Assembly: GCF_003343245.1 (NCBI RefSeq)
Contig: NZ_CP024901.1
Coordinates: 4,836,001 to 4,900,000 of the forward strand
Origin: Photorhabdus laumondii subsp. laumondii
Lineage (GTDB): Bacteria > Pseudomonadota > Gammaproteobacteria > Enterobacterales > Enterobacteriaceae
Direction of reading: 5' to 3'
DNA: 64,000 bases
Part shown: piece by piece, positions 4,708-41,232 of the stretch
How positions within the stretch are numbered: position 1 is the stretch's first letter
Layout: every line of letters starts with the position of its first letter
Notes under the pieces: model-generated
The model's database searches: none
Seen by the model: only the letters and a program-made list of their open reading frames with translations
Told to the model about the DNA's origin: nothing
Made by a program: the position numbers and the translations under genes

Positions 4708-4839
4708 ATGCTAAAAATCCTGCGCCTATGTTTCTTCGTGACAAAAACAAAAGCGCCAACGATCACCTTTGATGAAAAGGTGAATAGATACAATGGCCGG
4801 CCACCATCGCCTTACTCAAATGGAAGAGATAGCGACTAA
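4708..4839 (+). CDS. 43-aa small ORF with strong RBS, candidate precursor peptide of the adjacent RiPP-like operon
   Basis: AAGGAG lies six bases before ATG 4708, an almost ideal ribosome binding site, and is followed by 43 codons and TAA. The peptide starts MLKILRLCFFVTKTKA and ends with an Arg/Asn/Pro-rich tail, RYNGRPPSPYSNGRDSD, in which the motif (S)NGR occurs twice. It is convergent with the operon on the other strand and its last 77 bases overlap the 3' end of the arginase-like gene antisense. A peptide arginase would act on arginines, which this tail contains, so a precursor role is attractive. It is inference only: the overlap could make it a chance frame, and precursor genes usually lie on the same strand as their enzymes. 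Confidence 0.35.
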   Translation: MLKILRLCFFVTKTKAPTITFDEKVNRYNGRPPSPYSNGRDSD

Positions 4840-6022
4840 GCAACCGAGCAGCCACTGCGGCTGCCCCGTGGGCACCTTGCGAAGCATCACCAATCTCGAC
4901 AAACTCCATACCAACAATACGGAACTCGCTTAACAGCCGCTCAAAACAAGCCAACAGAGGATAGTAATTCAGGCCACCCAGTACAGGGGTTGCTGTCTGC
5001 GGTACTTCCGTACCAAACAGCACATCGACGTCAAAACTAATGAACCAAGGTAAAGAACGATCCATATTCCTGAATAGGCGCTCGTAGCCCACGGTCTCTG
5101 CTTCAAAAGCCGAGAGCATATGGAACTTAGGATCCACTTCTAACTGGAGGTTTTCAGTAGGTTGACAAAAATAATCCCGAATACCAATCTGCCAAATTGA
5201 TGCAACATGGGGCATACGACGAACCCAGTGCATGACATTAGCATGGCTAAGCTGCAAATCGCAGGGAGTCCCCATAGCATACAAATCAGGATGAGCATCA
5301 AACTGCAACACCCCCAGACGTGGATAACGCTCGCTTAAAGCACTTATGCTGTAGAAAGCTTGGGCATGATCTCCCCCTAGGATTATTGGACATGCATCCC
5401 ACTCCACAATATTACGGCACACATAGGTAAGCCGTTCACCAACATCGGTAGCACTATCCATACTAGGGCGGTATACGATATCACCGAGATCGAACAGACA
5501 CAGACGTTCTGGCTCCAACCGAGTACCGAAATCAAGGTCCAGTAAAACACCCTTTCCCGCTGTACCCAGAGGATGTCTCAAGCACTGTACCAACTGGGAA
5601 CGCACGTGTTGACCACCACCTGCAACCGATATCTCTCCTCCAGTTGTCGTCAAGATAGGAGCATGTAATAACACGGCATCATCGGCCTGGAGTTCATCAA
5701 AATCAAAGACGCTAATTGACTGTCCCGCCGGTTCCGAAACAGGTATACAAAGTCCGCCTTCCAAGGCGGTACTCGCATCTTCCGGAAACAGAAAATGGTA
5801 CTTCACCATAGCCTCAAACACAGAAATCCCCAGACGCTGGACTATAATTGTTCCGACCAGAACAGCCTCTGACTTTATTTGTTCCAATAATGATCTTATT
5901 TTACTAGACACACGCAGTCGCTTAGTGCCTAGGGGAATACTGATCTCTATACGCCCAGGTTCAACAGGATCGTAGCGCAGGCCAGGGTGAACACGGTATC
6001 TAAGGTTTACGCGATCCTTCAT
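4763..6022 (-). CDS. arginase/ureohydrolase-fold enzyme, possible peptide arginase
   Basis: From ATG 6022 the product has 419 residues. This start overlaps the upstream stop as ATGA and has AAGGAGG about nine bases before it; an upstream in-frame start would add 20 residues inside the neighbour. The manganese-ligand motifs of the ureohydrolase family are all present: GGDH (216-219), FDAHPD (241-246) and SFDVDV (329-334), plus a TPVLGGL segment near 345. Residues 1-120 are an extra N-terminal region not found in plain arginase or agmatinase. Its place as last gene of an operon with an exporter and an oxygenase suggests it acts on a peptide, as peptide arginases that turn Arg into Orn in RiPPs do. 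Free arginine or agmatine as substrate is the alternative. Confidence 0.7.
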   Translation of the reverse strand: MKDRVNLRYRVHPGLRYDPVEPGRIEISIPLGTKRLRVSSKIRSLLEQIKSEAVLVGTIIVQRLGISVFEAMVKYHFLFPEDASTALEGGLCIPVSEPAGQSISVFDFDELQADDAVLLHAPILTTTGGEISVAGGGQHVRSQLVQCLRHPLGTAGKGVLLDLDFGTRLEPERLCLFDLGDIVYRPSMDSATDVGERLTYVCRNIVEWDACPIILGGDHAQAFYSISALSERYPRLGVLQFDAHPDLYAMGTPCDLQLSHANVMHWVRRMPHVASIWQIGIRDYFCQPTENLQLEVDPKFHMLSAFEAETVGYERLFRNMDRSLPWFISFDVDVLFGTEVPQTATPVLGGLNYYPLLACFERLLSEFRIVGMEFVEIGDASQGAHGAAAVAARLLSRYLFHLSKAMVAGHCIYSPFHQR

Positions 6023-6744
6023 GAGGTCATCCCTCCTTCCAACCAAGGACGTAATTGATGAAACTCTAAGGCTCGTGCACAACTGGTTACTGTGCGAGCA
6101 ATCTCTGGCGATACAAAGTTCCTAGTCAAGCTAATCGTCGGCCCTTCATTCACCACCTCATGCCACCAAGTTGCAGGAATGTATAACAAATCACCTTTGT
6201 TGACCTCCAGGTAGCACCACTCTCCTTGGTTGCAACGGGTTTCGAGCACTTGTAAGGCTTGAGCTCTCTGTTGCTCATACTCATGGTCCCAGCAAACTGG
6301 CGCATGTAAGGCTAACCGTTTCTTGCCCTCAATCACGGCCAGCCAAGCATGAGTTTCCAATACATCGTAATGGAGAGCTGTGCCCGAACAATCAGCACCG
6401 ATGAATATCCATAGAAGAGGCTTGAACAACTTCTCCGGAATGCCTTGTAACAGATCACCAATAGCAGGTATAGGCTCATTAAAGTCCTGCAACATATCTG
6501 GGTTATGCTCAAAGAATCGCCACCCGGAAGCATACAAGTTAGCCAATCGCCCTTCACCGCTTTTCAAAGCCTGAATATATTCACACACAGGAACTTCAAC
6601 CTCGAACTCGCCATTTGCATTACTCAGTGCTAGCTTCTGTTCCTGCATCCCTGCAAAGAATTCCCAACTCCAGCGCCGGTGAGCAGACCAGTCCAAAGTG
6701 ACTCCTTTTAGCAAAATAGGTGACATCAATATCATTTCACTCAT
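6019..6744 (-). CDS. JmjC/cupin-type Fe(II)/2-oxoglutarate oxygenase
   Basis: 241 residues, a usual size for single-domain JmjC hydroxylases. The iron-binding triad is visible as H125-x-D127 (LHYDVLETH) and H195 (ATWWHEVVN), and GKKRLALHAP (140-149) fits the segment that holds the co-substrate. YLEVNKGDLLYIPATWWHEV is the typical strand before the distal histidine. The start overlaps the ABC transporter stop by eight bases and the end overlaps the arginase start, so translation is probably coupled. Family members hydroxylate amino-acid side chains in proteins or peptides, so here it is likely a tailoring enzyme; the substrate is unknown. Confidence 0.75.
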   Translation of the reverse strand: MSEMILMSPILLKGVTLDWSAHRRWSWEFFAGMQEQKLALSNANGEFEVEVPVCEYIQALKSGEGRLANLYASGWRFFEHNPDMLQDFNEPIPAIGDLLQGIPEKLFKPLLWIFIGADCSGTALHYDVLETHAWLAVIEGKKRLALHAPVCWDHEYEQQRAQALQVLETRCNQGEWCYLEVNKGDLLYIPATWWHEVVNEGPTISLTRNFVSPEIARTVTSCARALEFHQLRPWLEGGMTS

Positions 6745-8602
6745 TCTTAGGATCCATTGATATTAGTTCCGGCACAGATTGGTCTTCACGATGCAGTAAA
6801 CGCTGAAAAAGGCCATTGCGTGCCTCCAATTCACTCGGTGTTCCTATATCAACAATCTGCCCTTGTTCCATGACCACAATCAGATCAAAGCGACTCAATG
6901 TCGCAACACGGTGGGTTACAACTATCACCGTACGTTCTGGCATTTTATCGAGCAAATAATTGAGGATACGAGTTTCGGAAATTGTATCTACCGAGGATGT
7001 TGCTTCATCAAAAATAAGTAATGGAGATTTCTTAAGCAAAGCGCGCGCAACACTCAGACGCTGCCGTTCACCGGTGGAAATTGATGCTCCACGCTCTCCG
7101 ACCAAAGTATCCAGCCCCTGAGGCAACCCTTCCACCAACATCATAGCTTGCGCCATTGTCAGCGCATGAGAGACTTCTTCAGCGCTACTGACAGCAGAAC
7201 CATAGGTTACGTTTTCCCGTACAGAACGGTTGAACATCAAAGCAGATTGCAAAGCTTCACTCGACACTCGATGCAAACTGCTCATCGAAAACTTGGCTAA
7301 AGGCAATCCATGCAGTTCCACTGTACCGGAATCCGGTACCATATCACCACGCAGCACAGCTAACAGAGTAGACTTCCCTGATCCCGAAGGTCCCACAATG
7401 CCTACTTTGGTACCCGGTTCGATACGCAGGCTAACATCACGAAGTACAGATGTTGCACCATAACTGCTACACACGTTGGATAACACAATTTGTCCGGGTA
7501 CCGGTAATATTGGTGAAGACTCGTTTGATTCAATGTCCACCGGAATTGAGGATAATTCTCGTAAACTGGACCGCAGCACCCCCAAAGAGTCAAAAATATC
7601 AACAAAATAAAATGCAACGGACTCAAAGTGCCAGGATAGCGAAATGATAAGGGAACAGGTCGTGATTAGCTGGGGCAGTGTCAGTTGACCTTGCCCATAT
7701 TGCAGACCAATATAGAGCAAGATAGCTATTCCAAATAACCATTTGTAGGTACTTTCAATCAGCAACACAAATACCCAGTAGCTACGTACCTGCCGACAGG
7801 CGTAAAGATCTTGTCGCAATGCCTGACTGAAACTGTGTCGCTCCGAGCGATAAGCAACAAAGCTCCTGATCAAAGGTACGTTAGTCACTATCTCCGCCAG
7901 ATCTGAGATCACTTTGGCATGAGCATCGCTGGCGTCCTCAACAATATTCATACCGGTATAGGCTAAATAACTAGAAAGTAATAATGCCGTTATCATCCAT
8001 ATCCCAGCGGCCATTGCCATAGGTGCTGATACGCTGGCCAACACCAATGTAGTGAGAAGCGCCACAGAGAGTAACTTGACCACTGTCTGCGCCACCAAAC
8101 CCACAACGTCTTCTAGGCTATTAGAAGCTAACTCAACACGTTCGACAAGATTGCCGACAGAGTTCTCCGCCAGATTCATCGGCTTAGCATGCATTAGCCG
8201 GGTAGAAAGATGGTCTGTCACACCAATACGCAGGTTTTGGCTTGAATACAAAAGGGCCAGGCTGTGAACAGCTTGCAACAGTGGCGCAGACACCCAAAGT
8301 GAGATAATAATGGCAAGCATCATCAACACTTGTTCCTGCTGACCTTGCAAGGCTAGCGCAGTCAACCCACCCAGCACATAAGATTGGCCAACATTACATA
8401 CAGTACCCAGCACGGTAGCGACAATCATGATAATGGTACTTACCGGGGCACAAGCCAAGATTGCTGCACGAATGTACTGATATATACTGTTACCTGACTG
8501 TTCAAGCGGAATCGCCTTTGGCTTGGCAATATCTAAAGAGGCCAAGCGAGCAATGCTATGCCGCCAGGCCGATTGAAAAATGGATTGCATTAGGGTCCTC
8601 AT
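6737..8602 (-). CDS. ABC transporter, fused permease and ATPase (peptide/metabolite exporter type)
   Basis: 621 residues with an N-terminal membrane domain (about 50-340) and a C-terminal nucleotide-binding domain. Walker A GPSGSGKST lies at about 404-412, the signature STGERQRLSVARALL near 507, Walker B LLIFDEATS near 528 and the H-loop THR near 563. There is no N-terminal C39 peptidase domain, so it would not cleave a leader peptide itself. The ATG overlaps the upstream stop (ATGA) and the end overlaps the JmjC gene. In this operon it most likely exports the final product, and may also give self-protection. Confidence 0.85.
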   Translation of the reverse strand: MRTLMQSIFQSAWRHSIARLASLDIAKPKAIPLEQSGNSIYQYIRAAILACAPVSTIIMIVATVLGTVCNVGQSYVLGGLTALALQGQQEQVLMMLAIIISLWVSAPLLQAVHSLALLYSSQNLRIGVTDHLSTRLMHAKPMNLAENSVGNLVERVELASNSLEDVVGLVAQTVVKLLSVALLTTLVLASVSAPMAMAAGIWMITALLLSSYLAYTGMNIVEDASDAHAKVISDLAEIVTNVPLIRSFVAYRSERHSFSQALRQDLYACRQVRSYWVFVLLIESTYKWLFGIAILLYIGLQYGQGQLTLPQLITTCSLIISLSWHFESVAFYFVDIFDSLGVLRSSLRELSSIPVDIESNESSPILPVPGQIVLSNVCSSYGATSVLRDVSLRIEPGTKVGIVGPSGSGKSTLLAVLRGDMVPDSGTVELHGLPLAKFSMSSLHRVSSEALQSALMFNRSVRENVTYGSAVSSAEEVSHALTMAQAMMLVEGLPQGLDTLVGERGASISTGERQRLSVARALLKKSPLLIFDEATSSVDTISETRILNYLLDKMPERTVIVVTHRVATLSRFDLIVVMEQGQIVDIGTPSELEARNGLFQRLLHREDQSVPELISMDPKNE

Positions 8603-9036
8603 AAGGGCTCAATTAATAGGCCACCCAAACGAACTATCATTCTGACGAGTTCAGCCACAGCCGCGGGACTGATCTTTCCAGCAACACTGCGCTCCAGTAC
8701 CTCATAGGGTACTCGCTCACCAGAATTCAACAGTTCACACAAGGTTGCGAAGAGCTCATTAGGACGCCCCCAGATCACTCTACGCCTAATCAATAGTGCC
8801 TGCCGGCTGCCGAGATTCATACACAGCAAAGGGCAACATGGATGAATACGCAAAGTGCTGAGACGCAACTCTGCTTCATTCACTGGAGCAACCACTACCG
8901 TACTCAACTCGGGTGGCGTTATGATGAAGCCATTGCTACGTACTGCCAAACGCCTGAGCTGAACCAGTTCCTGCAAAGAGATAGGTTGTTCAGCCACTGC
9001 CGCAAACGACTTATCATCCGGTGCAAATAAACGCAA
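8599..9036 (-). CDS. 145-aa protein, probably the C-terminal remnant of a larger biosynthetic protein
   Basis: The frame opens at a TTG (9036) with no spaced ribosome binding site and stays open only a few codons upstream, to a stop at the edge of an xpaC-derived fragment (9055-9229). This suggests the native 5' end was replaced. The C-terminal half (about 85-145) looks like a small winged-helix or peptide-binding module. I do not recognise the family. It ends overlapping the ABC transporter start, so the gene belonged to this operon. Whether the remaining piece is translated is unclear. Confidence 0.45.
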   Translation of the reverse strand: MRLFAPDDKSFAAVAEQPISLQELVQLRRLAVRSNGFIITPPELSTVVVAPVNEAELRLSTLRIHPCCPLLCMNLGSRQALLIRRRVIWGRPNELFATLCELLNSGERVPYEVLERSVAGKISPAAVAELVRMIVRLGGLLIEPL

Positions 9037-9054
9037 ACCTTCCGCGGCAAAATC

Positions 9055-9229
9055 TATTTACAAGCTCATGCAGTAATTCTCATAAATTTTTCAACCTTCA
9101 CTCTCTGTATCTCATACATCATGCCGGGCTTATAACGCTTGATCTGGACCAGTTGTTCATAGTATTCAGCAAATCCTGCCAGTGCTTCATCTCACTGACG
9201 CAGCTCCTCTGCTTGTTGACGAGCAACAA
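9055..9229 (-). pseudogene. decayed fragment of an xpaC-like gene
   Basis: This stretch matches two separate parts of the intact xpaC-like gene at 23029-24078 and its 3' flank. 9055-9097 matches the sequence around that gene's stop (22992-23036), and about 9100-9229 matches its codons at 23380-23510 (for example KRYK-GM-YE-Q). The intervening ~340 bases are missing, and the frame contains stops. It has the same orientation as the source copy and sits between two operon genes, contributing the last codons of one and removing the start of the other. Confidence 0.8.
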
Positions 9230-9492
9230 AATGTTGATGCAGTAGATACGCGCACGTTAAGGGCATTGTTCACGATTGCCGAAAATTCATCGATCTCTAT
9301 TGACAAAGGCTCGTATCGCAAACATCCCAAGGTACAGTCGAACAGTGCTTCCAGGCGTACCATAAATTCAATTGCATCACGTGGAGGGATCTCCAGCCGC
9401 CCGCGCCCGATTAATTCTTCTACACTATCACCTGTCGTATCGCAGGCGACTTTGATAATTAATTGCCGAATGTAATTCACTGATATTGACAT
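9187..9492 (-). CDS. acyl-carrier-protein-like small protein lacking the carrier serine, with altered C-terminus
   Basis: From ATG 9492 (GGGAG seven bases upstream) it has 101 residues; an upstream ATG at 9540 has no ribosome binding site. Residues 1-80 follow the pattern of a four-helix acyl carrier protein, with PPRDAIEFMVRLEALFDCTL (36-55) aligning with the usual DSLDAVE-MALEEEF helix. The phosphopantetheine serine (DSL) is replaced by PPR, so it probably cannot carry an acyl arm there. About the last 14 residues (SSTSRGAASVR and before) are read out of frame from the xpaC-derived fragment, so the natural C-terminus is lost. A carrier or recognition role is possible but unproven. Confidence 0.5.
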   Translation of the reverse strand: MSISVNYIRQLIIKVACDTTGDSVEELIGRGRLEIPPRDAIEFMVRLEALFDCTLGCLRYEPLSIEIDEFSAIVNNALNVRVSTASTFCCSSTSRGAASVR

Positions 9493-9558
9493 GATTTCTC
9501 CCAAAATCTTTCTGCATGATAGGCTGGCTGATATTGACATCAGGTTGAAAAGTCATAC

Positions 9559-12500
9559 TCAAGCCTCCGTGCCTATGGCACGAATAATAGCAATAGGGTC
9601 AACTTCATCCAGTTTAAAACGACCTTTCTCCTCTGCTGCGGTGTGAATCAGAGCACGTTGAATATAGGTTTCAATTTCCTCAGTTATGCCATAAGGCACC
9701 AACCCAAGCTGTTTGACGCATTGCTGGCATTGGCTGTCAGAGAGTAAATTAGCATGATAAGCGAGTAGGTATTCCTTGCAGCGCTTAAATTTACTTTGCC
9801 AGCCTGCAACTTCATCTGCAATCGTGGCGGCAGAGCTTGCATTCACAGCGATTTCAGGTACATGGTGTAATACCAAATCGCGCAAAGCTGCATTTTCTGG
9901 CTCTGCAATTAGCTGTTGCAATGTGGCAGTCAAGTCACGACGATGCAACAGACTTACACCTATTCGCTCAGCGGCAACAGGTGATAGCGGCACTTGTACC
10001 ATCCTCAACAGTGTCTGTTCCGGCCACATCGCTGAAAGCAGCAATCCCAATTGCCCTGCTGTGGTGTGAAGGACATGCCATTGATTTTGGTCAGCTTCTG
10101 TTTTCTCCAATTCTTCAGCCATACAACGAAAAGCTTTCCAGGCACCTTCAAAACCGGCAATGCAAGCTCCAATTACCTCATCACGTACAAACTGGTTCAG
10201 GCAGAGTGCTGCTAGAGTTGTGGCAAAGGGCAATGAATAGACTGTGATACGTTGAATAGAAAAATCAACCGCTGCTCGGTAAGCGGCATAAGCACGAAAC
10301 AGGTCACGCCAAGGAGAATGACCAACCATTTCATATACATGTGAAACTTCATCGTTAGGAACATACGAGAAGTCGTAAGCTGTATCGAACAGCACTCGTA
10401 ACCAGAGCACCAATTGATGGAGATCCTCAGCTTGCCAACGGGCACCATCAGTACGCTGCATGCGCAAGAAAAGCGTCCAAGTTCCTAACTGACAGACTCG
10501 ATTCGGTGATACTCGCCATATGGGTTTCCATTCGACAATACGCAATGCCAACGCTTCGAATACATGTAAACGGCCAATGTCCTCTTCCGGAGCGTTCGGT
10601 AGTTCGGCAAATTCAACGATCAATTCCTTCTCATTAAAGAGGAAGCTGGCCTTATGTACTACAAAGGGGAGTGAAATCTCTAGAATGTTCCGTGTTAACC
10701 TCAGCAGGCAAGAGCGTGCATCACCAAAACCATCTGCGATATTTATCAGTTTGCGTAGGGGAGCAGGCAGTTCAGAACCGGAGTGAGCTCGAAAGTGAGC
10801 CAACATCCACTGATGTAAAAGATTATGTAGTTGATGAGCATTTTCCATAGGCAGTTGATCAGGCATCATATTGCCAGCAATGGGTATTAAAACTTGCCAG
10901 CGCAAGAAGTCGTCGCCCAAACATTCCACCATGTCTTCTTTTAACTCAAGCAAAAAATTGTCTGGCATGGGTTGATAACGAACATGCTCTATCCACCTTA
11001 GGAAAGAACGCAATGCCGCCGCCTCCGTGGCAGAAAGAGTCGACAGTTGGGCAAATGCAATCCAACCACTTAGCAAATCCAAGTAACGCTGATGTGTACT
11101 GGGATCACGCCGATCGACCACATCGATTAATACCGCTTTAAGCACTTGATCATAAGTATCCACCAAGTCAATGCGACAAAGGCCCTGCAATGTCGGTAAG
11201 TTTGCTTTATGTAGAGTCTCCATTAGGCTAGCGGTGGCTTGCAGTAAATCAGCAACTTCGCTGGCTCCAGCTAATGCAGCGGCAGCCTTAAAACATCTCA
11301 AAGGAGTTAAAAACGCCAGATAGGCAGCACATGCTTTTGGGGCACACACCAAACTAGCGAGTGCAGTCGGTGCTAGTTGGCCGTGATGTATTATCTCTAA
11401 TAGAGAGGCCGGAGAAAGCGTAGATTCTGCTACATTGACCAGAGTATATACAATATTTAACCGTTCAGTATCCTCGTAAATGGACAGAATTTCTGTATCT
11501 GCAAGTACATGGAGTATACATTCTAACAACAAGCGTGCATCGCTATACGGTGCAGTTATCGCAGCATCGACCAATGACGTTAATTGGATAGACGGCAATT
11601 TTTCAATCCATGCTTCAGTTTTAATTAACTGCATAATTAAGCACAGATCATTGAATCGGGTGAGCCTGCCTGCAAGCGTTGGGATAGCTTTGCATAAGCG
11701 CGGTAACACAGATTGCGGATTGCTTTTAGCGGTAAGAGCACAGAGATAATCTGCCGTTGCATCAGTTGTCGGCCAATCAGAGGGGAAAAACTCAATAGCT
11801 CTCTCTCCTGCCTGTGCGAGGAGCCAACCTGTTAAACTGGGGCTTCGGATAGCATTACCATTTTGTAGCCAAGTGTCTGTTGGGAAAACCGTGCGTCGTT
11901 TAAGTGTGGTGTAGGTCTTTTCCGTTAACACAGGTAAGCCAATCAACGCATTTTGCAGAATATCGGTAACACGTTGAGATGTAAGCTCCGTTATTCGCAA
12001 GGATTCACTGTCGTCAAACACACGTTGTACTGAGATAGGCAAATTAACCGATTCGGCAGTTTCCGTTTTCAATTCGATAAGTGGCTTTTGTGCACTAAAG
12101 TAGGCCAATTCCCCCATACTATCAATGACTACCCAAGGAACAGCGGGTATATCCGTTAGTTGGGTAAGAAAAACCGGCAAATTTTGTTGTCGGAACATGA
12201 TACCAGCATGTTCACTGCCCACCCCAGATTCAACGAAGACAGCGGTAAGAGCCGTTTGCACAGACAGGGGAAAACGCAGGTAACGAGACCAAGCATCGTT
12301 CAATGTCGATGCAGAAAGGAAGCTACCTAAAGAGGGAAAAGAAGGGGGTAATAGCGCTGCCACCGGTACTGCTCGCATACAATGCGCCAGCTCGGTGCGT
12401 ACTTCGGCGGTTAACCGTTGAACACGACGTTCAAGCGTGTAACCAGGAGCAGGACGCACCTGTACTAACCAAAGTTTATCTACGTTCACTTGACGTAATT

Positions 12501-13242
12501 GTGTGCCATACCACAAGGGAGCGGCTAATGTTGGCCAATGATAGGCGACCGAGTTTACCCTTGAACCGGGCGATTGCGCCGCCGCAAAGCCAAAACCAAA
12601 CGCCAGTTCTCCCCGAACACCATTAGAACCGGCTAAGGTCAGTCCGGTGGCCGATACCAATCCATGATCTGTTTCCAATACCCACTCAGTATCCAACGCA
12701 ATTTCAGAAAAGTGCTGATGTAACTGCCTGATAATTTTGTACAAACTATGACATACATCAGCTGTCAGATAGGGTGCCTGTAAAAGTTCCACTTGAGGTG
12801 GAGTGCCTTGAATCAACCGCTGAACAAAACAAGTGACTGGCTGTGGCTGATAATCAGGATTGATTAACCGTTGTTGTGCGATAGCTTGAGGTTCAAAACC
12901 ACTGAAAGTAACCTCAGCAACAGTGTCGGCAAAATCTGCTGTACGATGGCAAATGACACTCGCATAGCCACCCGCATTGACGAAAATATCACCATCTTCC
13001 AGACCTGCACTACGAACAATCCAGAGAGGTGGACCACATACTTCCTCTACTTGTTTTACCCAATCGTGATGCTCTGTAATATATTTGCTGTAGATGGTGC
13101 GTAACAGCTCAGCATCAGCATGTGGAGAAACCGCGGTGATGGCAAACGCTTTATCGGCAGGAAATGCCAACAAAGGGGGAATAAGAGCCGAAAAATCGAC
13201 GTGCCGGGCGAGCTGTTGTAATCGTTCAAATTTTGCAGTCAT
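9559..13242 (-). CDS. 1227-aa protein with N-terminal PEP-synthase/PPDK-like ATP-binding domain and long unknown C-terminal region
   Basis: The N-terminal ~285 residues resemble the ATP-binding domain of PEP synthase / pyruvate phosphate dikinase. WIVRSAGLEDGDIFVNAGGY (74-93) fits the RSSA.ED...AG motif, CFVQRLIQG fits the MVQ.M strand, and EWVLE with KLWLVQVRPAPGYT (about 270) fits the closing E and WIVQARP motif. There is no phospho-His swivel domain and no PEP barrel. The remaining ~900 residues look largely helical and I do not recognise them. It is the first gene of the operon and should define its chemistry, perhaps an ATP- or phosphate-dependent activation. The ribosome binding site before ATG 13242 is weak. 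Confidence 0.6.
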   Translation of the reverse strand: MTAKFERLQQLARHVDFSALIPPLLAFPADKAFAITAVSPHADAELLRTIYSKYITEHHDWVKQVEEVCGPPLWIVRSAGLEDGDIFVNAGGYASVICHRTADFADTVAEVTFSGFEPQAIAQQRLINPDYQPQPVTCFVQRLIQGTPPQVELLQAPYLTADVCHSLYKIIRQLHQHFSEIALDTEWVLETDHGLVSATGLTLAGSNGVRGELAFGFGFAAAQSPGSRVNSVAYHWPTLAAPLWYGTQLRQVNVDKLWLVQVRPAPGYTLERRVQRLTAEVRTELAHCMRAVPVAALLPPSFPSLGSFLSASTLNDAWSRYLRFPLSVQTALTAVFVESGVGSEHAGIMFRQQNLPVFLTQLTDIPAVPWVVIDSMGELAYFSAQKPLIELKTETAESVNLPISVQRVFDDSESLRITELTSQRVTDILQNALIGLPVLTEKTYTTLKRRTVFPTDTWLQNGNAIRSPSLTGWLLAQAGERAIEFFPSDWPTTDATADYLCALTAKSNPQSVLPRLCKAIPTLAGRLTRFNDLCLIMQLIKTEAWIEKLPSIQLTSLVDAAITAPYSDARLLLECILHVLADTEILSIYEDTERLNIVYTLVNVAESTLSPASLLEIIHHGQLAPTALASLVCAPKACAAYLAFLTPLRCFKAAAALAGASEVADLLQATASLMETLHKANLPTLQGLCRIDLVDTYDQVLKAVLIDVVDRRDPSTHQRYLDLLSGWIAFAQLSTLSATEAAALRSFLRWIEHVRYQPMPDNFLLELKEDMVECLGDDFLRWQVLIPIAGNMMPDQLPMENAHQLHNLLHQWMLAHFRAHSGSELPAPLRKLINIADGFGDARSCLLRLTRNILEISLPFVVHKASFLFNEKELIVEFAELPNAPEEDIGRLHVFEALALRIVEWKPIWRVSPNRVCQLGTWTLFLRMQRTDGARWQAEDLHQLVLWLRVLFDTAYDFSYVPNDEVSHVYEMVGHSPWRDLFRAYAAYRAAVDFSIQRITVYSLPFATTLAALCLNQFVRDEVIGACIAGFEGAWKAFRCMAEELEKTEADQNQWHVLHTTAGQLGLLLSAMWPEQTLLRMVQVPLSPVAAERIGVSLLHRRDLTATLQQLIAEPENAALRDLVLHHVPEIAVNASSAATIADEVAGWQSKFKRCKEYLLAYHANLLSDSQCQQCVKQLGLVPYGITEEIETYIQRALIHTAAEEKGRFKLDEVDPIAIIRAIGTEA

Positions 13243-13554
13243 ACGTTTTATTTTCTTACCTTATAGAGCCAGAATCCCAAATGAGTTTTCACGTTGACAA
13301 GGGCGAGTCGCGATTTTCTTCCCATCGCTTGATTTATGCCAACACTAACAACATCGCTAATTAAGCCCCTAATAACACAAATATTACCAGCTCGATAGTC
13401 AATATATGGGAAAAAACAACTGTTAATTTTTCCTTGTCATAGTATCGATGTCGTTTATATAAAAAACTGGTCACACGTGCTTGTGTGTAATCTTAGTTTC
13501 TACCTCCGGTTTTACTTCAATTATAGGTTGTTCAAACGTTCTTAAAGAATTGCC
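13243..13554. promoter_or_regulatory. upstream region of the RiPP-like operon
   Basis: 312 bases without a gene between the start of the 1227-aa gene and an ERIC repeat. The operon promoter should lie here; the part from 13350 to 13480 is AT-rich. I see no convincing operator. Confidence 0.35.
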
Positions 13555-13682
13555 TATACCCTATGGATTCCAAGATGAATCGCGACGGCAAGGGAGCGAA
13601 TCCCCGGGAGCATAGATAACGATGTGACCAAGGTGAGAGAGTGTAGCCAACAAAGAGGCAACTTGAAAGATAACGGGTATAT
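13555..13682 (+). repeat. ERIC-type palindromic repeat (copy 1)
   Basis: About 127 bases running from TATACCCTATGGATTCCAAG to AACTTGAAAGATAACGGGTA, with the conserved core GAATCCCCGGGAGCATAG and GCCAACAAAGAGGCAAC. Its right TATA end is the insertion point of the IS630 element that follows. Confidence 0.85.
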
Positions 13683-14780
13683 ACCCGTAATCATTGAAGA
13701 TGCTTGATTTTATCCGAAATGGAGATCATTATCCTCGCTATGAAAATATTCATTACCGATGAACAAAAAGCCGAACTTGAACATCTCCATCACACCTGCC
13801 GTGATAAGAGGGAGTGTGATCGCATCAAAGCGGTCCTGCTGGCCTCTGAAGGCTGGAGTTCAGTGATGATCGCTCAGGCCCTGCGTCTTCATGAAATGAC
13901 CGTTAACCGTCATATCAGCGATTACCTTAATCAAGGTAAACTTAAATCTGATAATGGGGGGTCTGATAGTTTGCTTTCTCAAGAACAAACTGATTTTTTA
14001 ATCAATCACTTATCTCAACATCTTTTCCATCACACCCATGAAATCGTGGCCTATGTTGCTCAGCTCTGGAATATTACCTTTAGCATTCCCGGCATGAATA
14101 AATGGCTACACCGTCAGGGTTTTTCTTATAAAAAACCTTGTGGCGTCCCTCATAAATTCGACGCAGAAAAACAGCGACAATTTATTGAATATTATGAGAA
14201 TCTTAAAGTCACAGCGAAAGACGAACCCATCCTTTTTCTTGATGCTGTTCACCCGACTCAAGGCACCAAACTCGGTTATGGCTGGATGCGAAAAGGCGAG
14301 AAAAAAACAGTAAAAACAACAGGAAGCCGGACTCGCCTGAATATATTGGGCGCGCTCAACCTGAATGCCATTGGTCGTACGGTGTTCCAGGAATATCAAA
14401 CCATCAATGACTACAACATTTGCTGTTTTTTCAATGAAATAAGAAAGTCTTATCCTGACTATCATCAAAAAATTCATCTTATTGTGGATGGGGCGGGTTA
14501 CAACAAAGCTCATCTTGTTAAGGAGTGGGCTTATGTTAGCAATATTGAGTTACATTACCTTCCTCCCTATAGCCCAAATTTAAACCCAATAGAGCGATTA
14601 TGGAAGGTCATGAATGAACAGGTTCGAAATAACCGTTATTTTGCGGATAAACATGAATTTCGAGACAACGTCTTCAAATTTTTCACCACAACGCTACCGG
14701 ATATAGCGGACTCGCTGATGTCTAGAATTAACGACCATTTTCAGGTGCTAAAAACTGCATCTTGAAGTTTCTTGGGTATA
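13680..14780 (+). mobile_element. IS630-family insertion sequence
   Basis: The element spans an imperfect inverted repeat: TATACCCGTAATCATTGAAGATGC on the left and, in reverse complement, TATACCCAAGAAACTTCAAGATGC-like sequence on the right ending at 14780 (bases differ within it). It begins at the TA of an ERIC end, which fits the TA target of the IS630/Tc1 group. It contains one transposase gene. Confidence 0.75.
13740..14765 (+). CDS. IS630-family transposase
   Basis: From ATG 13740 (MKIFITDEQKAELEHLHH) the protein has 341 residues; an upstream start at 13704 would lie in the terminal repeat. The N-terminal ~110 residues contain helix-turn-helix segments (SVMIAQALRLHEMTVNRHIS). The DDE catalytic residues are visible in LFLDAVHP, LIVDGAGYNKAH and YSPNLNPIERLWKVM. 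The frame is intact and of full family length, so it may be active. Confidence 0.9.
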   Translation: MKIFITDEQKAELEHLHHTCRDKRECDRIKAVLLASEGWSSVMIAQALRLHEMTVNRHISDYLNQGKLKSDNGGSDSLLSQEQTDFLINHLSQHLFHHTHEIVAYVAQLWNITFSIPGMNKWLHRQGFSYKKPCGVPHKFDAEKQRQFIEYYENLKVTAKDEPILFLDAVHPTQGTKLGYGWMRKGEKKTVKTTGSRTRLNILGALNLNAIGRTVFQEYQTINDYNICCFFNEIRKSYPDYHQKIHLIVDGAGYNKAHLVKEWAYVSNIELHYLPPYSPNLNPIERLWKVMNEQVRNNRYFADKHEFRDNVFKFFTTTLPDIADSLMSRINDHFQVLKTAS

Positions 14781-15111
14781 GAATTATTAAAATTTGACGA
14801 TTGAGTATTGAATTCATTAAACACAGGTTCCACCTTGTATTTTTTCGAATCGTCTCTATTTTAAATAGAGTGGCAAGACTATTCTTGCCACCGACTAAAC
14901 TACAATTAACTAATCATGGGAATATAATAATGCTCTTCATCATCCCAAGTTCACTTAATAATCCCACTATTCCCATATATATTAGTCACCTTTACATTCA
15001 AACTATCGTTGACAGATTTCTATCCTAAAGCCTCACCTCTTACCTGAGGTAAAATAAATTCGTAGCTAACTAGTTTGAATAATTGATGAATAGTCAATAG
15101 ATCCCAATACA
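14781..15111. other. intergenic, nothing recognised
   Basis: 330 AT-rich bases between the IS630 end and the 3' end of the P47-like gene. Only short frames without ribosome binding sites are present. ATTTTAAATAGAGTGGCAAGACTATTCTTGCCACC near 14858-14892 can form a small hairpin (GTGGCAAGA / TCTTGCCAC). Confidence 0.4.
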
Positions 15112-16993
15112 CTAACAACAACTTTCCATACCGGGCGTACCATTAACACCCGTAGAATATTCCTTATACCTTGCTGGTGGATTTGTTAATTTTCCTTTTA
15201 CTGCAATTTGTTGCGTGTTGATAGTACCTTTATTTGTAATATAAAGAGGAATAACTTTTTTTAGATCGAAAATAGAATAATGAATGTTGAAGAGATTGAG
15301 CCATCGCTGTTTGATGCTGTCACTTTCACGGTTTCGACTCACCAATAGAGGCCACTGAAGGGGCTGTATAAAGTCCTGAAGTACTGATACTACCCAGATC
15401 TACAGGGCTGATTGACCATTTAACATTCTTAGCTGGGGTCACAGTAAATTGTTGGGTTTTATTGGCAGACAGAAGTATCTCTGCGGGTTCAACTTTCAGA
15501 CCTGTCAAGGTAGGGCTAATATCGCCGAATAAGACCAAATCTCCAGGAACAGCAATCTGATCAAATTCCAAAACTTCCGAGTTCGGAAACAGAATATGCT
15601 GAATATAAAATGTATTGATATCAGGTAATTCGAAAAAACCAGTCTTATTAATTTTATCTGTGAGCTGATTTGCCATCTTCTCTGTTCCATTACTTTCAAT
15701 AAGACTTAATCTACTATGTTCTGACTTAATACATTTAACGGTTATCTTGCCAACCGTTGAAAATGAAATAATATTATTTTCCTTCAGAGAAACTTCAGCC
15801 TTGCATTTCCCATCACAGCTAAAAGTGTAATCATTTAAATAATCTTGATGTATCCACCCTGCCGGGCCGTAATAATCCCAAGATGCTGAGAATCGATGAT
15901 TATAAGTATGGTTCTCAGGGAATTGTAAAACAACATGCTTACTTTCATTATCTTCAACATCAGCAGCTATAGTAAATTTATTAAATGGCAGGTGAGCAAC
16001 CTGCACCTCTCCTTTCTCATCACAGCTCTTATATCTAGTCGTTGAGTCTAAAAAAGTTACAGAACCATCTATAATTTCATTTGTCGGTGTATATCCTCCA
16101 GTAAACTGCAAAGTTACAGGACTATTCTGCCCTGAATTGATGGTTGTAAAAGCAGCATCATCAATATATTTTTTAAAATGTTCAGCAAATATATTACCGA
16201 ATAGGGTTGCGTTCCCAATAATGAGAGCTGCCGATTTTCCTTCTGGAATAATGTAAGGATAGTTATCTCCTGGCAGGTTACCCCCACCTGCATTATAATT
16301 AGTGGCAATAAAAAGCAGTACAGCTCCATCACCATAGTTTTTAGAATCTCGTAATGTTCCGCTAGGGGCTGGTTGTGTGCGAACAATAAATTTTTTAGGA
16401 TAAAGTCTATTTTTACCATTATTAGGCTTTAATACACCTAGAATATATTCATTAGGATTAGACTGAATATATTGCCTAAAATACTGCACAATCTCTGCTG
16501 GAGCATCATTTAATCCTTCTATATCCAGTAAAGTACCTTTCTCAAATTTGATGACAACCTTACCACTATTCTCAGAGACCCCATTACCGATATTCTCAAC
16601 AACCCCATTACCATATTCCAGATTTACATTAAGCTTGATAGCATAATTATTCGCTGGACTGATCTTTTCCCATTTAATAACTTGACCATTAGAGTTTGTA
16701 TAGACAATCGAACCAGAAATAAATTTCATAGTTGCTGTGGCCTGACTGGCCGTAATTTTGGAATCCTCAAATGAAATGAGTGGCACACCTAAAACGACAT
16801 CCTGGAGTTTTATTCCATACTTCTCATTTTCAAAACTTATAGGAGGATATTGCACCCCCGCAGCTCTCTTTTCTATATATTGCTGAAGCAATAATTGATT
16901 AACTTTATTTCGATCATAAGCAACAACGGCATCCCAACCCAACGCAACACTGCACATTCTTAAAGAGTTAATTATATCATTTGCGTTACTCAT
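15112..16993 (-). pseudogene. P47-like (TULIP-type) toxin-associated protein with C-terminal Ig-like domain, frameshifted near its 3' end
   Basis: Translation starts best at ATG 16993 (MSNAND), with GGAGG five bases upstream. The first ~450 residues, opening GWDAVVAYDRNKVNQLLLQQ, resemble P47-type lipid-binding proteins encoded beside clostridial toxins. A bacterial Ig-like domain follows (LTGLKVEPAEILLSANKTQQ ... GSISTSGLYTAPS). The main frame stops at 15326, but the next frame continues the domain (TVKVTASNSDGSISSTFII), and a second shift near 15265 leads into FDLKKVIPLYITNKGTINTQ, ending at 15112. Two frameshifts therefore break the tail. The main body could still be made. P47 assignment is by remembered pattern; the Ig domain is clearer. 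Confidence 0.55.
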
Positions 16994-17429
16994 TACATCC
17001 TCCATCTATTTAAATAACAAATATAGTTAATAGTGGCCAGTCAATTTAAATAGAGACTACCCATGCCACTAATTATCAATAAATTAACAATCCCAGATAC
17101 AGAAAATCTAAGTCATTACTCCATACAACATTATTTTATGAATAAATCATTCATAGAAAATTAATAGCCCACCTGAAAAACACCCAACAATATAAATATT
17201 AGGCGATAAAAATAAACCCTCTTTAGTTTAATCCCCCGGATGATTTACTCAACACTTCCGACAAATTCAATTAACGATTAAATATTAACATTAACACTAC
17301 CTTAATATACTATAAAAATAGAAAACCCATTCCAATAACCTAACTATTAACTACTATATCACTATCAATAAATCTTAACCATAATCTAATAGTTCACATC
17401 TTTAAATATAATAAATTAATGTATTATCA
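16994..17429. other. AT-rich intergenic region
   Basis: About 435 bases upstream of the P47-like gene, extremely AT-rich. It probably carries that gene's promoter. No frame, repeat or clear RNA gene is seen. Confidence 0.4.
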
Positions 17430-17926
17430 AAAACAGTCAGCGACAGCGGATTATATACTCCGCCGAAGAAGTTCGAGGGTGGTTACCATTTTGTCAGTAT
17501 TATTGCCAGTTTGCCGTCAGGAGAAGAAACGCGAGCCATTGTCTGCCTGGCTAGTCAAAATACGATAGCTGAGTTTAAAGTGACGCCTTCATACGCTTTA
17601 AATATTACTCCACAGAAAAAAGTCACCTTTACAACAAAAAGTGAAGATTTTGAAGGTAATTTATGGGAGATTTATCCGAAGAAAGGGAGCATAACGGATG
17701 TAAGCTACAAAGAAGAAGGTGATTTCTCAGTTTATACCCGTCTTTGCTATGCTCCCGGGGATTCACTCCCTTGCCGCCGTGATGCATCTTTAAATCAATA
17801 GGGTATATACAGCAACGTATCAGAGCCCCATAGAACAAAACCAGCGGATGCAATGTCTTGTCCAGGTCATGCAAAAGAATAAACCGAAACGTTCTGGATA
17901 TGCTGTAGTTGATTTAATTCCTTAAT
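17430..17926 (+). pseudogene. fragment of an Ig-like-domain protein gene, interrupted by a partial ERIC repeat
   Basis: A frame with no start codon reads VSDSGLYTPPKKFEGGYHFV and on through an Ig-like pattern that parallels the SxSGLYTAPS repeat of the P47-like neighbour. It is coherent up to about 17730 (EEGDFSVYTR), where a shortened ERIC copy enters. After the repeat, a coherent short tail ends GYAVVDLIP and stops at 17926, probably the old C-terminus. The 5' end of the gene is missing. The piece may come from a second P47-like gene, now on the opposite strand. Confidence 0.55.
17733..17807 (-). repeat. ERIC-type repeat, internally deleted (copy 2)
   Basis: Only ~75 bases long. Both TATACCC ends and the core GCTATGCTCCCGGGGATTC are present, but the segment carrying the GCAACTTGAA and GGTGAGCGAG parts is missing. 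It lies inside the Ig-like gene fragment. Confidence 0.7.
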
Positions 17927-23028: not shown

Positions 23029-24078
23029 TCAGCCTTTTTGATCATACTTAGCAGCAAACCCTTGGGAACGGACCAACTGATTCATTACTTTTAGATCTAC
23101 CAATAGATCGTCAATATCGTTATCTAACAGACGCTGGTGCATTTCGCTAAATACTACGCTCATTTCCTTTATCCCTTGATAAGTCAGGGATTTCACCTCT
23201 TCGAATTGGGCGCTATCAGCACTTTGCTCCTCTAACGAAACACAACGCTCCAATGCTTTGACAATCATTGGCAAATAACGGTTGAGAAATAACTTACCGG
23301 GAGTGACATCCCTGGCATCAGCCTGCATACAGTCAATGATCGCCTGCGTTTTCTCCTCAATCAGGTTAACCAATTCCTGCATCTCATACGCCATACCAGA
23401 CTTATAACGTTTGATCTGAGCCAATTGTTCATAGTATTCAGCAAACTCTGCCTGTGTCTCATCTTGCCGACGCTGCTCCTCTGCCTGTTGACGAGCAACA
23501 AGCTGTTGTTGCTGTTGCAGCGCTTTCTGCCGTCGAAAATTATTCCAAGGCTCAATCAACACCGTTACCAGCACGACGACAAAAAATACGACACCAAACC
23601 AAACAGGAATCGCATGGGCATCAATTCTAAACAACGCGACAATAGTACTCGCTGTCATCAGTAATAATGGGAACCTGCTTACCTCTAGTTTACGTTGTCT
23701 GATAATCGTGATGAGCAAAGCCGCCAGCCCGCCAAACAATAGTGCGGCAGCCCACAGCTCCGCCAGCGGGCTCAACACCACCACCAACCAACCGGCCAAA
23801 GTCGCGGGCCTATGTGGACGTGACGGATAGAGAGCCAATAATCCGATATAGACTGATAACACCACTATGCTGGAAATATGACCATCACCCGCAGGCAAGA
23901 CCAAAAAAGACCAAGGAGTATACAGAACAACACAAGCCAGTATAAAAGCGAGGACAAAGATTTTGATATGAAACAGTACACGTGATAGAGACCGCTTGAT
24001 GCTACCGAACAGAGATATTACTCCCTGTTCCTGCTGTTGTGCCGCATCACGGTCAGACGATGATTGAGGTGTAGGCAT
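23029..24078 (-). CDS. XpaC-like membrane protein (5-bromo-4-chloroindolyl phosphate hydrolysis family)
   Basis: 349 residues. A soluble N-terminus (1-30) is followed by several membrane segments (about 40-180, for example IFVLAFILACVVLYTPW and WFGVVFFVVVLVTVLIEP). A long coiled-coil, Gln/Glu-rich cytoplasmic part follows (KALQQQQQLVARQQAEEQRR, from about 190). It ends 60 bases after the telA-like gene upstream; this gene pair is common and is usually linked to stress or toxic-anion resistance. The 'hydrolysis' name is historical and the biochemical role is unknown. A decayed fragment of a second copy lies at 9055-9229. Confidence 0.75.
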   Translation of the reverse strand: MPTPQSSSDRDAAQQQEQGVISLFGSIKRSLSRVLFHIKIFVLAFILACVVLYTPWSFLVLPAGDGHISSIVVLSVYIGLLALYPSRPHRPATLAGWLVVVLSPLAELWAAALLFGGLAALLITIIRQRKLEVSRFPLLLMTASTIVALFRIDAHAIPVWFGVVFFVVVLVTVLIEPWNNFRRQKALQQQQQLVARQQAEEQRRQDETQAEFAEYYEQLAQIKRYKSGMAYEMQELVNLIEEKTQAIIDCMQADARDVTPGKLFLNRYLPMIVKALERCVSLEEQSADSAQFEEVKSLTYQGIKEMSVVFSEMHQRLLDNDIDDLLVDLKVMNQLVRSQGFAAKYDQKG

Positions 24079-31700: not shown

Positions 31701-31929
31701 CAAAATTAGGTTTTACTGAGTTATCAGCCTGCTTTGCATCATACAAGCGTGGGTCAATACTGTGGTTCAGGTATCCACGGGCATCATACTGGTGACGGGT
31801 GACGCGGGTGTCAATATCCCCGCCAATCACAACACGGTGAAAACCGATATCACGAATGGACAGGCCACGATTATCTAACACGCTGACTGTTGGGGTTTGA
31901 GTATAAAGAGCAGTATCAGGCGTACTCAT
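28798..31929 (-). CDS. tccC1: TccC1, toxin-complex C subunit (RHS core with C-terminal effector)
   Basis: 1043 residues, the length I recall for TccC from P. luminescens W14, and near-identical to it in remembered sequence. The N-terminal ~680 residues are the RHS/YD-repeat shell (LRYEYDPVGNVISIHNDAEA, YSYDRGGNLVQIRHS), ending in the conserved core GLYYYGYRYYQPWVGRWLSADPAG near 650-680. The rest is the variable effector part, here very Gly/Ala-rich with membrane-like segments (GGLAIGGLAAAIAGTAGAAL). In Tc toxins the B and C subunits form a cocoon that shields the cleaved C-terminal effector. It lies 133 bases after tccB in a tccA-tccB-tccC1 order. The action of this effector is not clear from sequence. 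Confidence 0.95.
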   Translation of the reverse strand: MSTPDTALYTQTPTVSVLDNRGLSIRDIGFHRVVIGGDIDTRVTRHQYDARGYLNHSIDPRLYDAKQADNSVKPNFVWQYDLAGHALRTESVDAGRTVALNDIEGRPVMTMNATGVRQTRRYEGNTLPGRLLSVSEQVFDQETSQVTERFIWAENTTAEKEYNLSGLCIRHYDTAGVTRLMSQSLAGAILSQSHQWLAEGQEANWSGDDETVWQRMLASEVYTTQSTTNAIGALLTQTDAKGNIQRLAYDIAGQLKGSWLTVKGQREQVIVKSLSWSAAGHKLREEHGNGVITEYSYEPETQRLMGITTRRAEESQSEARVLQDLRYEYDPVGNVISIHNDAEATRFWRNQKVEPENRYVYDSLYQLMSATGREMANIGQQSNQLPSPAMPVPADNSTYTNYQRTYSYDRGGNLVQIRHSSPATQNSYTTEMTVSSRSNRTVLSTLTTDPTQVDGLFDAGGHQKTLIPGQNLDWNMRGELQRVTPVSRENSSDSEWYRYSSDGVRLLKVSEQQTGNSTQVQRVTYLPGLELRITGVADKTTQNLQVITVGEAGRAQVRVLHWESGKPADIDNNQVRYSYDNLLGSSQIELDSEGQILSQEEYYPYGGTAVWAAKNQTEASYKFIRYSGKERDATGLYYYGYRYYQPWVGRWLSADPAGTVDGLNVYRMVRNNPITLTDHDGLAPSPNRNRNTFWFASFLFRKPDEGMSASMRRGQKIGRAIAGGLAIGGLAAAIAGTAGAALPVILGVAAVGAGIGALMGYNVGSLLEKGGALLARLVQGKSTLVQSAAGAAAGASSAAAYGARAQGVGVASAAGAVTGAVGSWINNADRGIGGAIGAGSAVGTIDTMLGTSSTLTHEVAAAAGGAAGGMITGTQGSTRAGIHAGIGTYYGSWIGFGLDVASNPAGHLANYAVGYAAGLGAEMAINRVIGGGFLGRLLGRAVSPYAAGLARQLVHFSIARPVFEPIFSVLGGLAGGIGTGLHRVMGRDSWVSRGLSAAGSGIDHLAGMIGNQIRGRVLTTTGIANAIDYGTSAIGAARRVISL

Positions 31930-32017
31930 ATCATATTCCTTTTATTTTGTTTTAAAGCTTCCCTTCCAATGAAATGGAGAAAGATCGCAAGATTGATTTT
32001 AGATATGACAGATCCTT

Positions 32018-32042
32018 TCCCACTCTGGCGACCAGAGTGGGA
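32018..32042. promoter_or_regulatory. hairpin in the tccB-tccC1 gap
   Basis: TCCCACTCTGG, CGA, CCAGAGTGGGA: an 11-bp perfect stem with a three-base loop, 20 bases after the tccB stop. No T-run follows in the direction of tccC1. It could be a partial terminator or an mRNA-stability element that adjusts tccC1 relative to tccAB. Confidence 0.5.
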
Positions 32043-32062
32043 AGTCTTAGTTAAAAGTTAAT

Positions 32063-36757: not shown

Positions 36758-36851
36758 AATTATCTGCCTTACTTAAATGGCGGTTTAGAAATAGCCTCAT
36801 TGGGCCATACGGAAAAATCAAATCCACTCAGGTAGTGAGCTTCTGCCATGC

Positions 36852-39752: not shown

Positions 39753-40179
39753 ACGGACTCCTGAATTGAGGTTTATTATGAGAAACAGGTTTTTTCGTGC
39801 AAAAAACAACCACCATCGTTATGTGTAAGAAAGGCACCAGAACAAACACACGCCTTTAGAACATCAGTTAGCACGACCTTCCAAAGACGCCATACACAGT
39901 GATGATGTGTGATGAAAAATATAATAAATCACAAAACTTGCTTACATTAAAAAACAAAATACAGACAATAAAATAACTTTACCTTTATATAATTACTTAT
40001 AATAAACATTTACTTATATTGATGATTAATTTACAAAAAAACCAATACAATGAATATTCTTGGTGTATGTTCATTGTTTTTTTTAAGAAAAATAGTTTAT
40101 TGAAAAGTAATGAGAAGTGAATAAGTCAAATTCCGCATATCCGAATAGTTAAAGTTCTAAATAAGAATCTCTTTATTGA
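39753..40179. promoter_or_regulatory. upstream region of the tccABC locus
   Basis: About 430 bases, AT-rich from 39905 on. It lies between the tccA start and the last immunity-like gene, whose transcripts also enter it from the right. I cannot point to a specific promoter or operator. Confidence 0.4.
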
Positions 40180-41223: not shown

Positions 41224-41232
41224 TATTCATAC

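Follow-up and report, generated by a model that had tools for sequence, protein, structure and literature searches.

A block of six open reading frames (ORFs), all on the minus strand and all open, lies between positions 4763 and 13242 of a stretch of 64,000 nucleotides from Photorhabdus laumondii subsp. laumondii (contig NZ_CP024901.1, positions 4,836,001 to 4,900,000), which is referred to here as the window. An earlier note, made from the sequence alone, had read the block as a single operon for a ribosomally synthesized and post-translationally modified peptide (RiPP). The genes are described below as two units, with the two upstream genes forming unit A and the four downstream genes, which encode a JmjC-like stub, an ATP-binding cassette (ABC) exporter, a cupin and an arginase-fold enzyme, forming unit B:

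9559-13242, minus strand: gene for a 1227-aa protein (unit A)
9187-9492, minus strand: gene for a small DUF6137 protein, 101 aa from its ATG, with no carrier serine (unit A; PF19634, 5.6e-40)
8599-9036, minus strand: C-terminal stub of a JmjC2-like protein, 145 of 385 aa, with a TTG start (unit B)
6737-8602, minus strand: ABC exporter, 621 aa, with membrane and ATPase domains (unit B; PF00664, PF00005)
6019-6744, minus strand: cupin_8/JmjC oxygenase-like protein, 241 aa (unit B; PF13621)
4763-6022, minus strand: arginase-fold enzyme with an extra N-terminal domain, 419 aa (unit B; PF00491)

A Pfam search gave no match for the 145-aa or the 1227-aa protein. The six genes do share one strand, as the earlier note had it; the overlaps that it ascribed to most of them occur at three of the five junctions (8599/8602, 6737/6744 and 6019/6022), and the two upstream junctions have none.

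The family of the 1227-aa protein comprises 80 relatives, including the window's own (E <= 1e-3, from 7,993 scored candidates). A pattern scan of GTDB species genomes yielded 36 loci with a member of this family, in Photorhabdus, Xenorhabdus, Pseudomonas, Trinickia, Mitsuaria/Roseateles, Rugamonas, Streptomyces, Paenibacillus and Clostridium. They include loci from Paenibacillus chitinolyticus, Streptomyces albogriseolus and S. catenulae, which are producers of butirosin, neomycin and paromomycin. Clustering of the neighbouring ORFs revealed a conserved gene set around the family, the fullest set read being that of L018 (here and below, L denotes a locus or stretch, G a genome and P a protein in the comparison sets). 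The order in L018 is phosphatase, 1227-aa protein, ribosyltransferase, aminotransferase, PIG-L, DUF6137 and a dehydroquinate (DHQ)-synthase-type enzyme. Pfam matches among the L018 neighbours are to a class III aminotransferase, a histidine phosphatase (PF00300), a DHQ-synthase-type enzyme, a PIG-L deacetylase and radical S-adenosylmethionine (SAM) enzymes, with weak matches to a phosphoribosyl pyrophosphate-type phosphoribosyltransferase (0.0028) and a glycosyltransferase; one further gene reads as a DegT-type aminotransferase. This is presumably the gene set of the ribosylated 2-deoxystreptamine aminoglycosides. A BtrL-like predicted ribosyltransferase resembling that of L018 is present within the fetched flank in 28 of the 36 loci, the eight without it being L013-L017, L030, L036 and L037. 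The neighbourhood search proposed in the earlier note led to predicted aminoglycoside clusters rather than to a peptide operon, and unit B lies beside the family, within the fetched flank, in only one of the 36 loci.

Butirosin- and neomycin-type clusters share this neighbourhood, in which the 1227-aa family is accompanied by a ribosyltransferase, PIG-L, a DHQ-synthase-like enzyme and aminotransferases, whereas the window keeps just the 1227-aa and DUF6137 genes. Collinearity of the window with L018 (74% identity) begins within the phosphatase gene and extends over the 1227-aa gene; the alignment then jumps from L018 position 13660 to 17571 (3,911 bp, three genes) and picks up again at the final 45 bp of the PIG-L ORF, which spans 16821-17615 in L018. 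Two traces of the missing genes can be recognized in the window:

9477-9521, minus strand: 45-bp tail of a PIG-L deacetylase gene, overlapping the start of the DUF6137 gene (from collinearity with L018)
13266-13536, minus strand: remains of a histidine-phosphatase (BtrP-like) gene, broken into pieces and lying upstream of the gene for the 1227-aa protein (tblastn, in shifted frames; intact in L018)

A jump of the same kind is seen in L013-L017, and no match to a BtrL-like ribosyltransferase was found in the genome that contains the window. Because the three genes that separate the survivors in relatives are missing, and a 45-bp tail of PIG-L is left, unit A is likely what is left of a predicted cluster for a ribosylated 2-deoxystreptamine aminoglycoside, with the 1227-aa and DUF6137 genes as its two ends.

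Unit B, too, is better understood from relatives. Its full order is short ORF, JmjC1, JmjC2, ABC exporter, cupin and arginase, as in L017 (P. caribbeanensis), where the short ORF, JmjC1 (420 aa) and JmjC2 (385 aa) precede the other three genes. Seven loci were read, namely six from Photorhabdus with a close JmjC1 copy (L017 and L065-L069) and one from Burkholderiales (G854, stretch L090). The unit is complete in L017, G002, G010 (with an extra JmjC1 fragment), G006 (in which JmjC1 contains a stop) and the Burkholderiales genome; G004 and G008 have the short ORF and JmjC1 only. JmjC1 matches occur in 8 of 58 relatives, six of them close copies (78-100%) and two at about 39%, and there is none in the window's own genome. 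The JmjC1 of L017, which is 100% identical to the copy in G007 (apparently the same genome), has a weak JmjC_2 match and no solved relative by sequence. It is homologous to JmjC2 (hhalign 98.8%), and by eye the H-x-D motif and the distal histidine are kept. At E 1e-60, the arginase family of unit B was found in the window's own genome only among 369 genomes of the class and 394 of the order, in 1 of 398 genomes of one family and in none of the 11 genomes of one genus. No plasmid match was found at E 1e-40, and when ten genomes were checked at E 1e-30, three of them had arginase matches, all of them weaker.

A second, longer family of JmjC1-like proteins (605-651 aa, about 40% identical) is encoded in three further Photorhabdus loci, L070 (7286-9241), L071 (7393-9210) and L072 (7025-8842). 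These genes adjoin two ORFs of about 307-334 aa, and L070 and L071 have an additional ORF of 1624-1625 aa beside them.

Comparison with L066 accounts for the form of unit B in the window. Positions 4711-9045 match L066 6321-10655 at 93.4%, and the match is taken up again by 9046-9098, which corresponds to L066 13334-13387. Lost between them are the precursor ORF, JmjC1 and the first 237 codons of JmjC2. What remains of this 385-aa JmjC-like protein is its C-terminal 145 residues, the 145-aa protein of the window, which as a query found two proteins, the window's own and one other from Photorhabdus. The features of this boundary are as follows:

9045-9046, no strand: deletion junction, with 2,679 bp absent relative to L066 (alignment with L066)
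9046-9098, minus strand: remaining part of the sequence that preceded the lost precursor ORF (94% to L066 13334-13387)
9105-9243, minus strand: gene fragment of 139 bp, overlapping the 3' end of the DUF6137 gene, with a full copy at 23029-24078 (blastn to L013/L014/L017)

The neighbouring-gene fragment at 9105-9243, together with the differing order of the units (B-A in L017, A-B in the window), points to rearrangement in the window. Neither unit A gene was found in stretches L065, L067, L068, L069 and L090 (genomes G004, G006, G008, G010 and G854), and L066 (G002) has DUF6137 upstream of unit B and lacks the 1227-aa gene. On the strength of the deletion scars and of the co-occurrence data, the six-gene block is interpreted, with fairly high confidence, as a join of two unrelated gene-cluster pieces lying end to end, each likely a relic, and the six genes very likely do not constitute one pathway.

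The short ORF that the window lacks is the predicted precursor. It encodes 46-51 aa and is located just upstream of JmjC1 in all seven loci with a close JmjC1 copy, in each case with a GGAG-type Shine-Dalgarno site a few nucleotides before the ATG. All copies share an invariant GLEVVED-x-P-x-IS motif, and the C-terminal part has an arginine-rich stretch, RPVRHIR in its unaltered form. Of the 15 pairs with computable dS (synonymous divergence), 14 have a lower nonsynonymous divergence (dN); dS is not computable for the six pairs with L090. The search for short conserved ORFs suggested in the earlier note was productive in the related loci (7/7). The same note had named homologous loci that lack any precursor-like ORF and act on free metabolites as a finding that would refute its reading; precursor-like ORFs are present in relatives and missing in the window and in its genome, in which the precursor profile had no match (it had matches in 6 of 19 genomes). 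A predicted small-peptide precursor gene would thus be present in relatives and missing here. RPVRHIR is kept in the four loci in which all genes are open (L017, L066, L067 and L090) and altered in the three that are damaged, to RSVQPIR in L065 (no arginase), CPVRQIC in L069 (no arginase) and RPVRQIC in L068 (broken JmjC1). Alteration in damaged loci only is as expected if the core arginines are the substrate, seven loci being few. The arginase, cupin and exporter genes are preceded by a conserved ORF with an Arg-rich end both in relatives and in a distant Burkholderiales genome, which supports a RiPP reading of the three genes there.

The arginase-fold protein matches PF00491 (1.2e-34, its only Pfam match) and has the metal motifs GGDHA, DAHPD and FDVDV; in the motif test, DAHPD fits the first motif, and the other two stand in place of the remaining ones. 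The cupin matches PF13621 (3.7e-17), with HYD at 125 and His195, and the solved proteins closest to it are JMJD6 and JMJD5. The statement that both proteins keep their metal ligands is thereby borne out, as is the description of an exporter without a peptidase, in which ABC_membrane and ABC_tran are the sole matches above cut-offs and no peptidase domain is listed. As to the comparison with OspR-type peptide arginases proposed in the earlier note, the protein belongs to PF00491 and not to the OspR family PF12640. A grouping with agmatinases, which the note had named as refuting its reading, has a divided outcome: the nearest solved folds are agmatinases, and among the 50 matches listed there are only ureohydrolases, but the score against the agmatinase equivalog TIGR01230 is 83.9 bits, below the cut-off of 174.3, and the arginase family falls outside 41 other PF00491 proteins (SH-aLRT 99, in a quick tree drawn with a midpoint root and carrying long-branch warnings). 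That tree contained 37 family rows, the window's arginase and 41 (every second) of the 82 proteins listed as P0121-P0202, with P0120 left out, giving 79 rows of which 78 are different. Most of the listed family has the extra N-terminal domain, P0114, P0116 and P0119 being shorter. In the modelled structure, this domain has strands at 14-17, 22-27, 30-34 and 41-45 and helices at 46-57, 63-70 and 72-80, and four strands with three helices may resemble a RiPP recognition element (RRE). In the Acinetobacter protein P0111, the arginase is fused to a Cupin_8 domain.

In an intact unit B, the exported peptide would derive from the C-terminal RPVRHIR stretch of the 46-51-aa precursor, whose leader motif, GLEVVED-x-PQIS, would be gripped by small accessory domains of the enzymes. 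The arginase would convert a core arginine to ornithine, its partner cupin would hydroxylate that ornithine (or an arginine), JmjC1 and JmjC2 would oxidize other core residues, and the ABC protein would export the product. We infer the steps from arginine to ornithine and then to a hydroxylated residue by analogy with the biphenomycin and enteropeptin enzymes and with JmjC proteins that carry RRE-like domains. In the biphenomycin pathways (PMC12257519, PMC12707348), ornithine is formed by an arginase and is then the substrate of a hydroxylating cupin/JmjC enzyme. KgrD, from the enteropeptin pathway, is described in PMC12703449 as a PF00491 arginase acting in a RiPP pathway, and PMC12710340 reports JmjC proteins with RRE-like domains, the closest bacterial homologues of which are in RiPP-like contexts.

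None of these systems is the same as unit B. The biphenomycin/pbs system (with PbsE or BipC as arginase and PbsQ or BipG as hydroxylase) shares with unit B the combination of an Arg-core precursor, an arginase and a JmjC/cupin enzyme. It uses a UPF0489/PF12640 arginase, MNIO and B12 radical SAM enzymes and an FHAFRF core. Unit B instead has a PF00491 arginase, an RPVRHIR core and JmjC-type oxygenases among the cluster genes read; the FHAFRF motif is absent from all seven precursors, and in L017, L066-L068 and L090, where some of the flanking ORFs were profiled, the cluster genes that were identified include neither an MNIO nor a B12 radical SAM enzyme. KgrD and unit B have a PF00491 arginase in common. 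KgrD, however, needs a thiomorpholine beside the arginine, made from cysteine; RPVRHIR has no cysteine, and five of the seven precursors have none at all. The peptide arginase of landornamide, OspR, has the same proposed reaction type as the unit B arginase.

Unit B thus looks like a RiPP type without a description in the literature searched, in which no paper was found that joins Photorhabdus, a biosynthetic gene cluster, an arginase and a RiPP; in the aminoglycoside search, PMC6804068 names Photorhabdus for other matters. The most specific reading is offered tentatively, as one that falls somewhat short of an even chance. It holds that unit B represents a new RiPP family, with a GLEVVED-x-PQIS precursor of 46-51 aa, an almost invariant RPVRHIR core, a leader-reading PF00491 arginase and three JmjC-type oxygenases, which would make an oxidized, hydroxy-ornithine-containing cationic peptide of insect symbionts and Burkholderiales, and that the 1227-aa and DUF6137 proteins form a histidine-shuttling dikinase unit kept alone by selection when the other genes of its antibiotic cluster disappeared.

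Several results weigh against the account of two relics with a RiPP cluster as the source of unit B. The orphan 1227-aa gene is open in six Photorhabdus loci (the window and L013-L017), and the median dN/dS of the orphan genes is 0.18, against 0.15 among six cluster copies (medians from pairs with dS > 0.05 only); the orphan gene is a relic by gene content, but it is not a dead gene. For unit B, dN/dS in the window is about 0.1, like that of intact loci, and it may be that the loss is recent or that the surviving genes are still in use. Units A and B are neighbours in both the window and L017, and DUF6137 neighbours unit B in L066, a linkage that rearrangement alone does not explain. As to the peptide, the RPVRHIR core is unusually conserved for a RiPP core, the short-ORF pair L068/L069 has a dN slightly above its dS, and L070-L072, with their longer JmjC1-like proteins, have no LEVVED-type short ORF. 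The N-terminal domain of the arginase is RRE-like only in the model, with no Pfam profile match, and hhalign gave no profile link between it and the C-termini of the JmjC proteins (0.4 and 0.5%).

Three other explanations deserve comment. The remnants of unit B in the window could still be in use, with the arginase, cupin and exporter acting on a peptide encoded elsewhere or on a free guanidino compound. The three genes are open, with dN/dS values of 0.07-0.19 in the window comparisons, but a recent deletion gives the same values, and the window's own genome has neither a precursor-like match nor a JmjC1 match, so this explanation is considered unlikely. A comparably low probability is given to the view that unit B is not a RiPP system at all, in which case the short ORF would encode a small protein with a regulatory or carrier role, and free metabolites would be the substrates of the arginase and the oxygenases. 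A C-terminal stretch more conserved than the usual RiPP core would fit that view, as would the nearest solved folds of the arginase, which are agmatinases and other enzymes of free guanidines. It is less easily reconciled with a core that changes in exactly the three loci with damaged enzyme sets, with a short ORF before JmjC1 in every locus with a close copy, or with an arginase that stands outside 41 other PF00491 proteins and below the agmatinase cut-off; in RiPP pathways, it is an established pairing for an arginase and a JmjC/cupin enzyme to work on the same residue of a peptide. A single functional operon, in which the 1227-aa, DUF6137, exporter, cupin and arginase proteins make and export one tailored peptide, has in its favour the close spacing of genes on one strand, the adjacency of A and B in L017 and the DUF6137 gene upstream of B in L066, but it was rejected as highly improbable on co-occurrence and scars, given that neither unit A gene is in the unit B stretches of G010, G006 and G854, that unit B was not found in the flank of 35 of the 36 loci of the 1227-aa family, that the order is reversed between L017 and the window, that each unit bears the scar of a deletion, and that the search of the genome gave no precursor. 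Of the RiPP-like operon proposed in the earlier note, the peptide reading is supported for the arginase, cupin and exporter, in relatives, and the single operon gives way to a join of two units.

Turning to the proteins of unit A, the 1227-aa protein has an ATP domain of the pyruvate phosphate dikinase (PPDK)/rifampin-phosphotransferase type (ATP-grasp, PPDK_N-type), which agrees with the domain resembling phosphoenolpyruvate (PEP) synthase seen in the earlier note. That note had found the phospho-His missing; it is present, as His345 in the motif EHAGIMFRQ, within a phospho-His swivel domain, and is invariant in 19/19 and 22/22 aligned rows. With an ATP domain and a phospho-His domain bearing the catalytic histidine, the protein falls within the PEP-utilising dikinase superfamily. 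The best structural matches of the two domains are rifampin phosphotransferase and PPDK/PEP synthase, which share the ATP-grasp and swivelling phospho-His domains; the profile of the 1227-aa protein has no solved relative by sequence. In rifampin phosphotransferase, the substrate domain lies between the ATP and His domains. That layout was considered for the 1227-aa protein and discarded, the ATP domain ending near 270 and the His domain starting near 291, so that the two are adjacent. Unlike in rifampin phosphotransferase and PPDK, the presumed acceptor part is C-terminal to both domains, where about 800 aa have no significant Pfam or PDB sequence match. Phosphate might be passed from ATP via His345 to an acceptor on this C-terminal part, with DUF6137 as a partner.

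The 'ACP-like' protein of the earlier note, that is, a supposed acyl carrier protein (ACP), proves to be DUF6137. An acyl or peptidyl carrier identity was rejected: the gene position is absent from the 74 PF00550 matches in the window's own genome, and no serine was seen by eye at the carrier position in any of 21 aligned loci. DUF6137 occurs in 21 of the 36 loci of the 1227-aa family. It is found without a BtrL-like ribosyltransferase in G000, G005, G007, G008 and G009 and with one in G001, G002, G006, G010, G011 and G015. Fusions of the 1227-aa and DUF6137 proteins exist (P0007-P0009) and were set aside as proof of joint function, the fusion junction being a deletion scar (L016). No mention of DUF6137 was found in the literature search. 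The pair is probably kept for function in most orphan loci; the seventh Photorhabdus orphan, L036, is a fragment only, and its strain has a second copy within a cluster (L023).

No DUF6137 gene was found within the L034 locus, whose ACP is a true PF00550 carrier. In the butirosin gene order, a gene of the 1227-aa family presumably sits where btrA would be, and the L034 gene is assumed, from gene order, to be BtrA. If it is, the occurrence of the family in clusters of species that make compounds without the aminohydroxybutyryl side chain speaks against a side-chain role for BtrA. In PMC11405602, BtrA is counted among the genes for that side chain.

Some further observations concern the surroundings of these genes. 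In Clostridium tepidiprofundi (L030, 3098-7279), a 1227-aa family gene and a DUF6137 gene after it form an independent stand-alone pair, the flank containing none of the aminoglycoside genes that were tested for. Just upstream of unit A, at 13704-14765 of the window, is a DDE_3 transposase, presumably of the IS630 type, which is a possible agent of rearrangements. Elsewhere in the window, a 553-aa ORF that by eye looks PAAR/Rhs-like is followed directly by seven short tandem ORFs, perhaps an array of immunity genes (40180-44071 and 44068-45729); two of the seven were tested, and both are DUF6392. Genes at 46130-51888 encode GNAT, AMP-binding-like, fused LuxC and AMP-binding, and LuxE-like proteins, perhaps an aldehyde or acyl-transfer set. 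Large ORFs at 28798-39809 and 53601-56498 resemble, by eye, components of insecticidal Tc-type toxins. A P450 (56815-57918), an esterase-like protein (61589-62743) and a double polyketide-cyclase/lipid-transfer protein (62763-63956) perhaps form a small biosynthetic locus.

The block is a caution that two remnants of deletion can look like one orderly series of overlapping genes. Attention is also drawn to a large protein that adjoins a predicted ribosyltransferase in 28 of 36 loci and whose step, given a dikinase-type active site and a life under selection outside the clusters, becomes directly testable. Unit B pairs a PF00491 arginase with JmjC-type enzymes, a pairing that the literature read here ties to the biphenomycins through another arginase family. 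The intact clusters of the Photorhabdus relatives and the Burkholderiales genome, with a defined precursor ORF and a conserved arginine-rich core, provide a genetic handle on what is apparently an undescribed peptide family.

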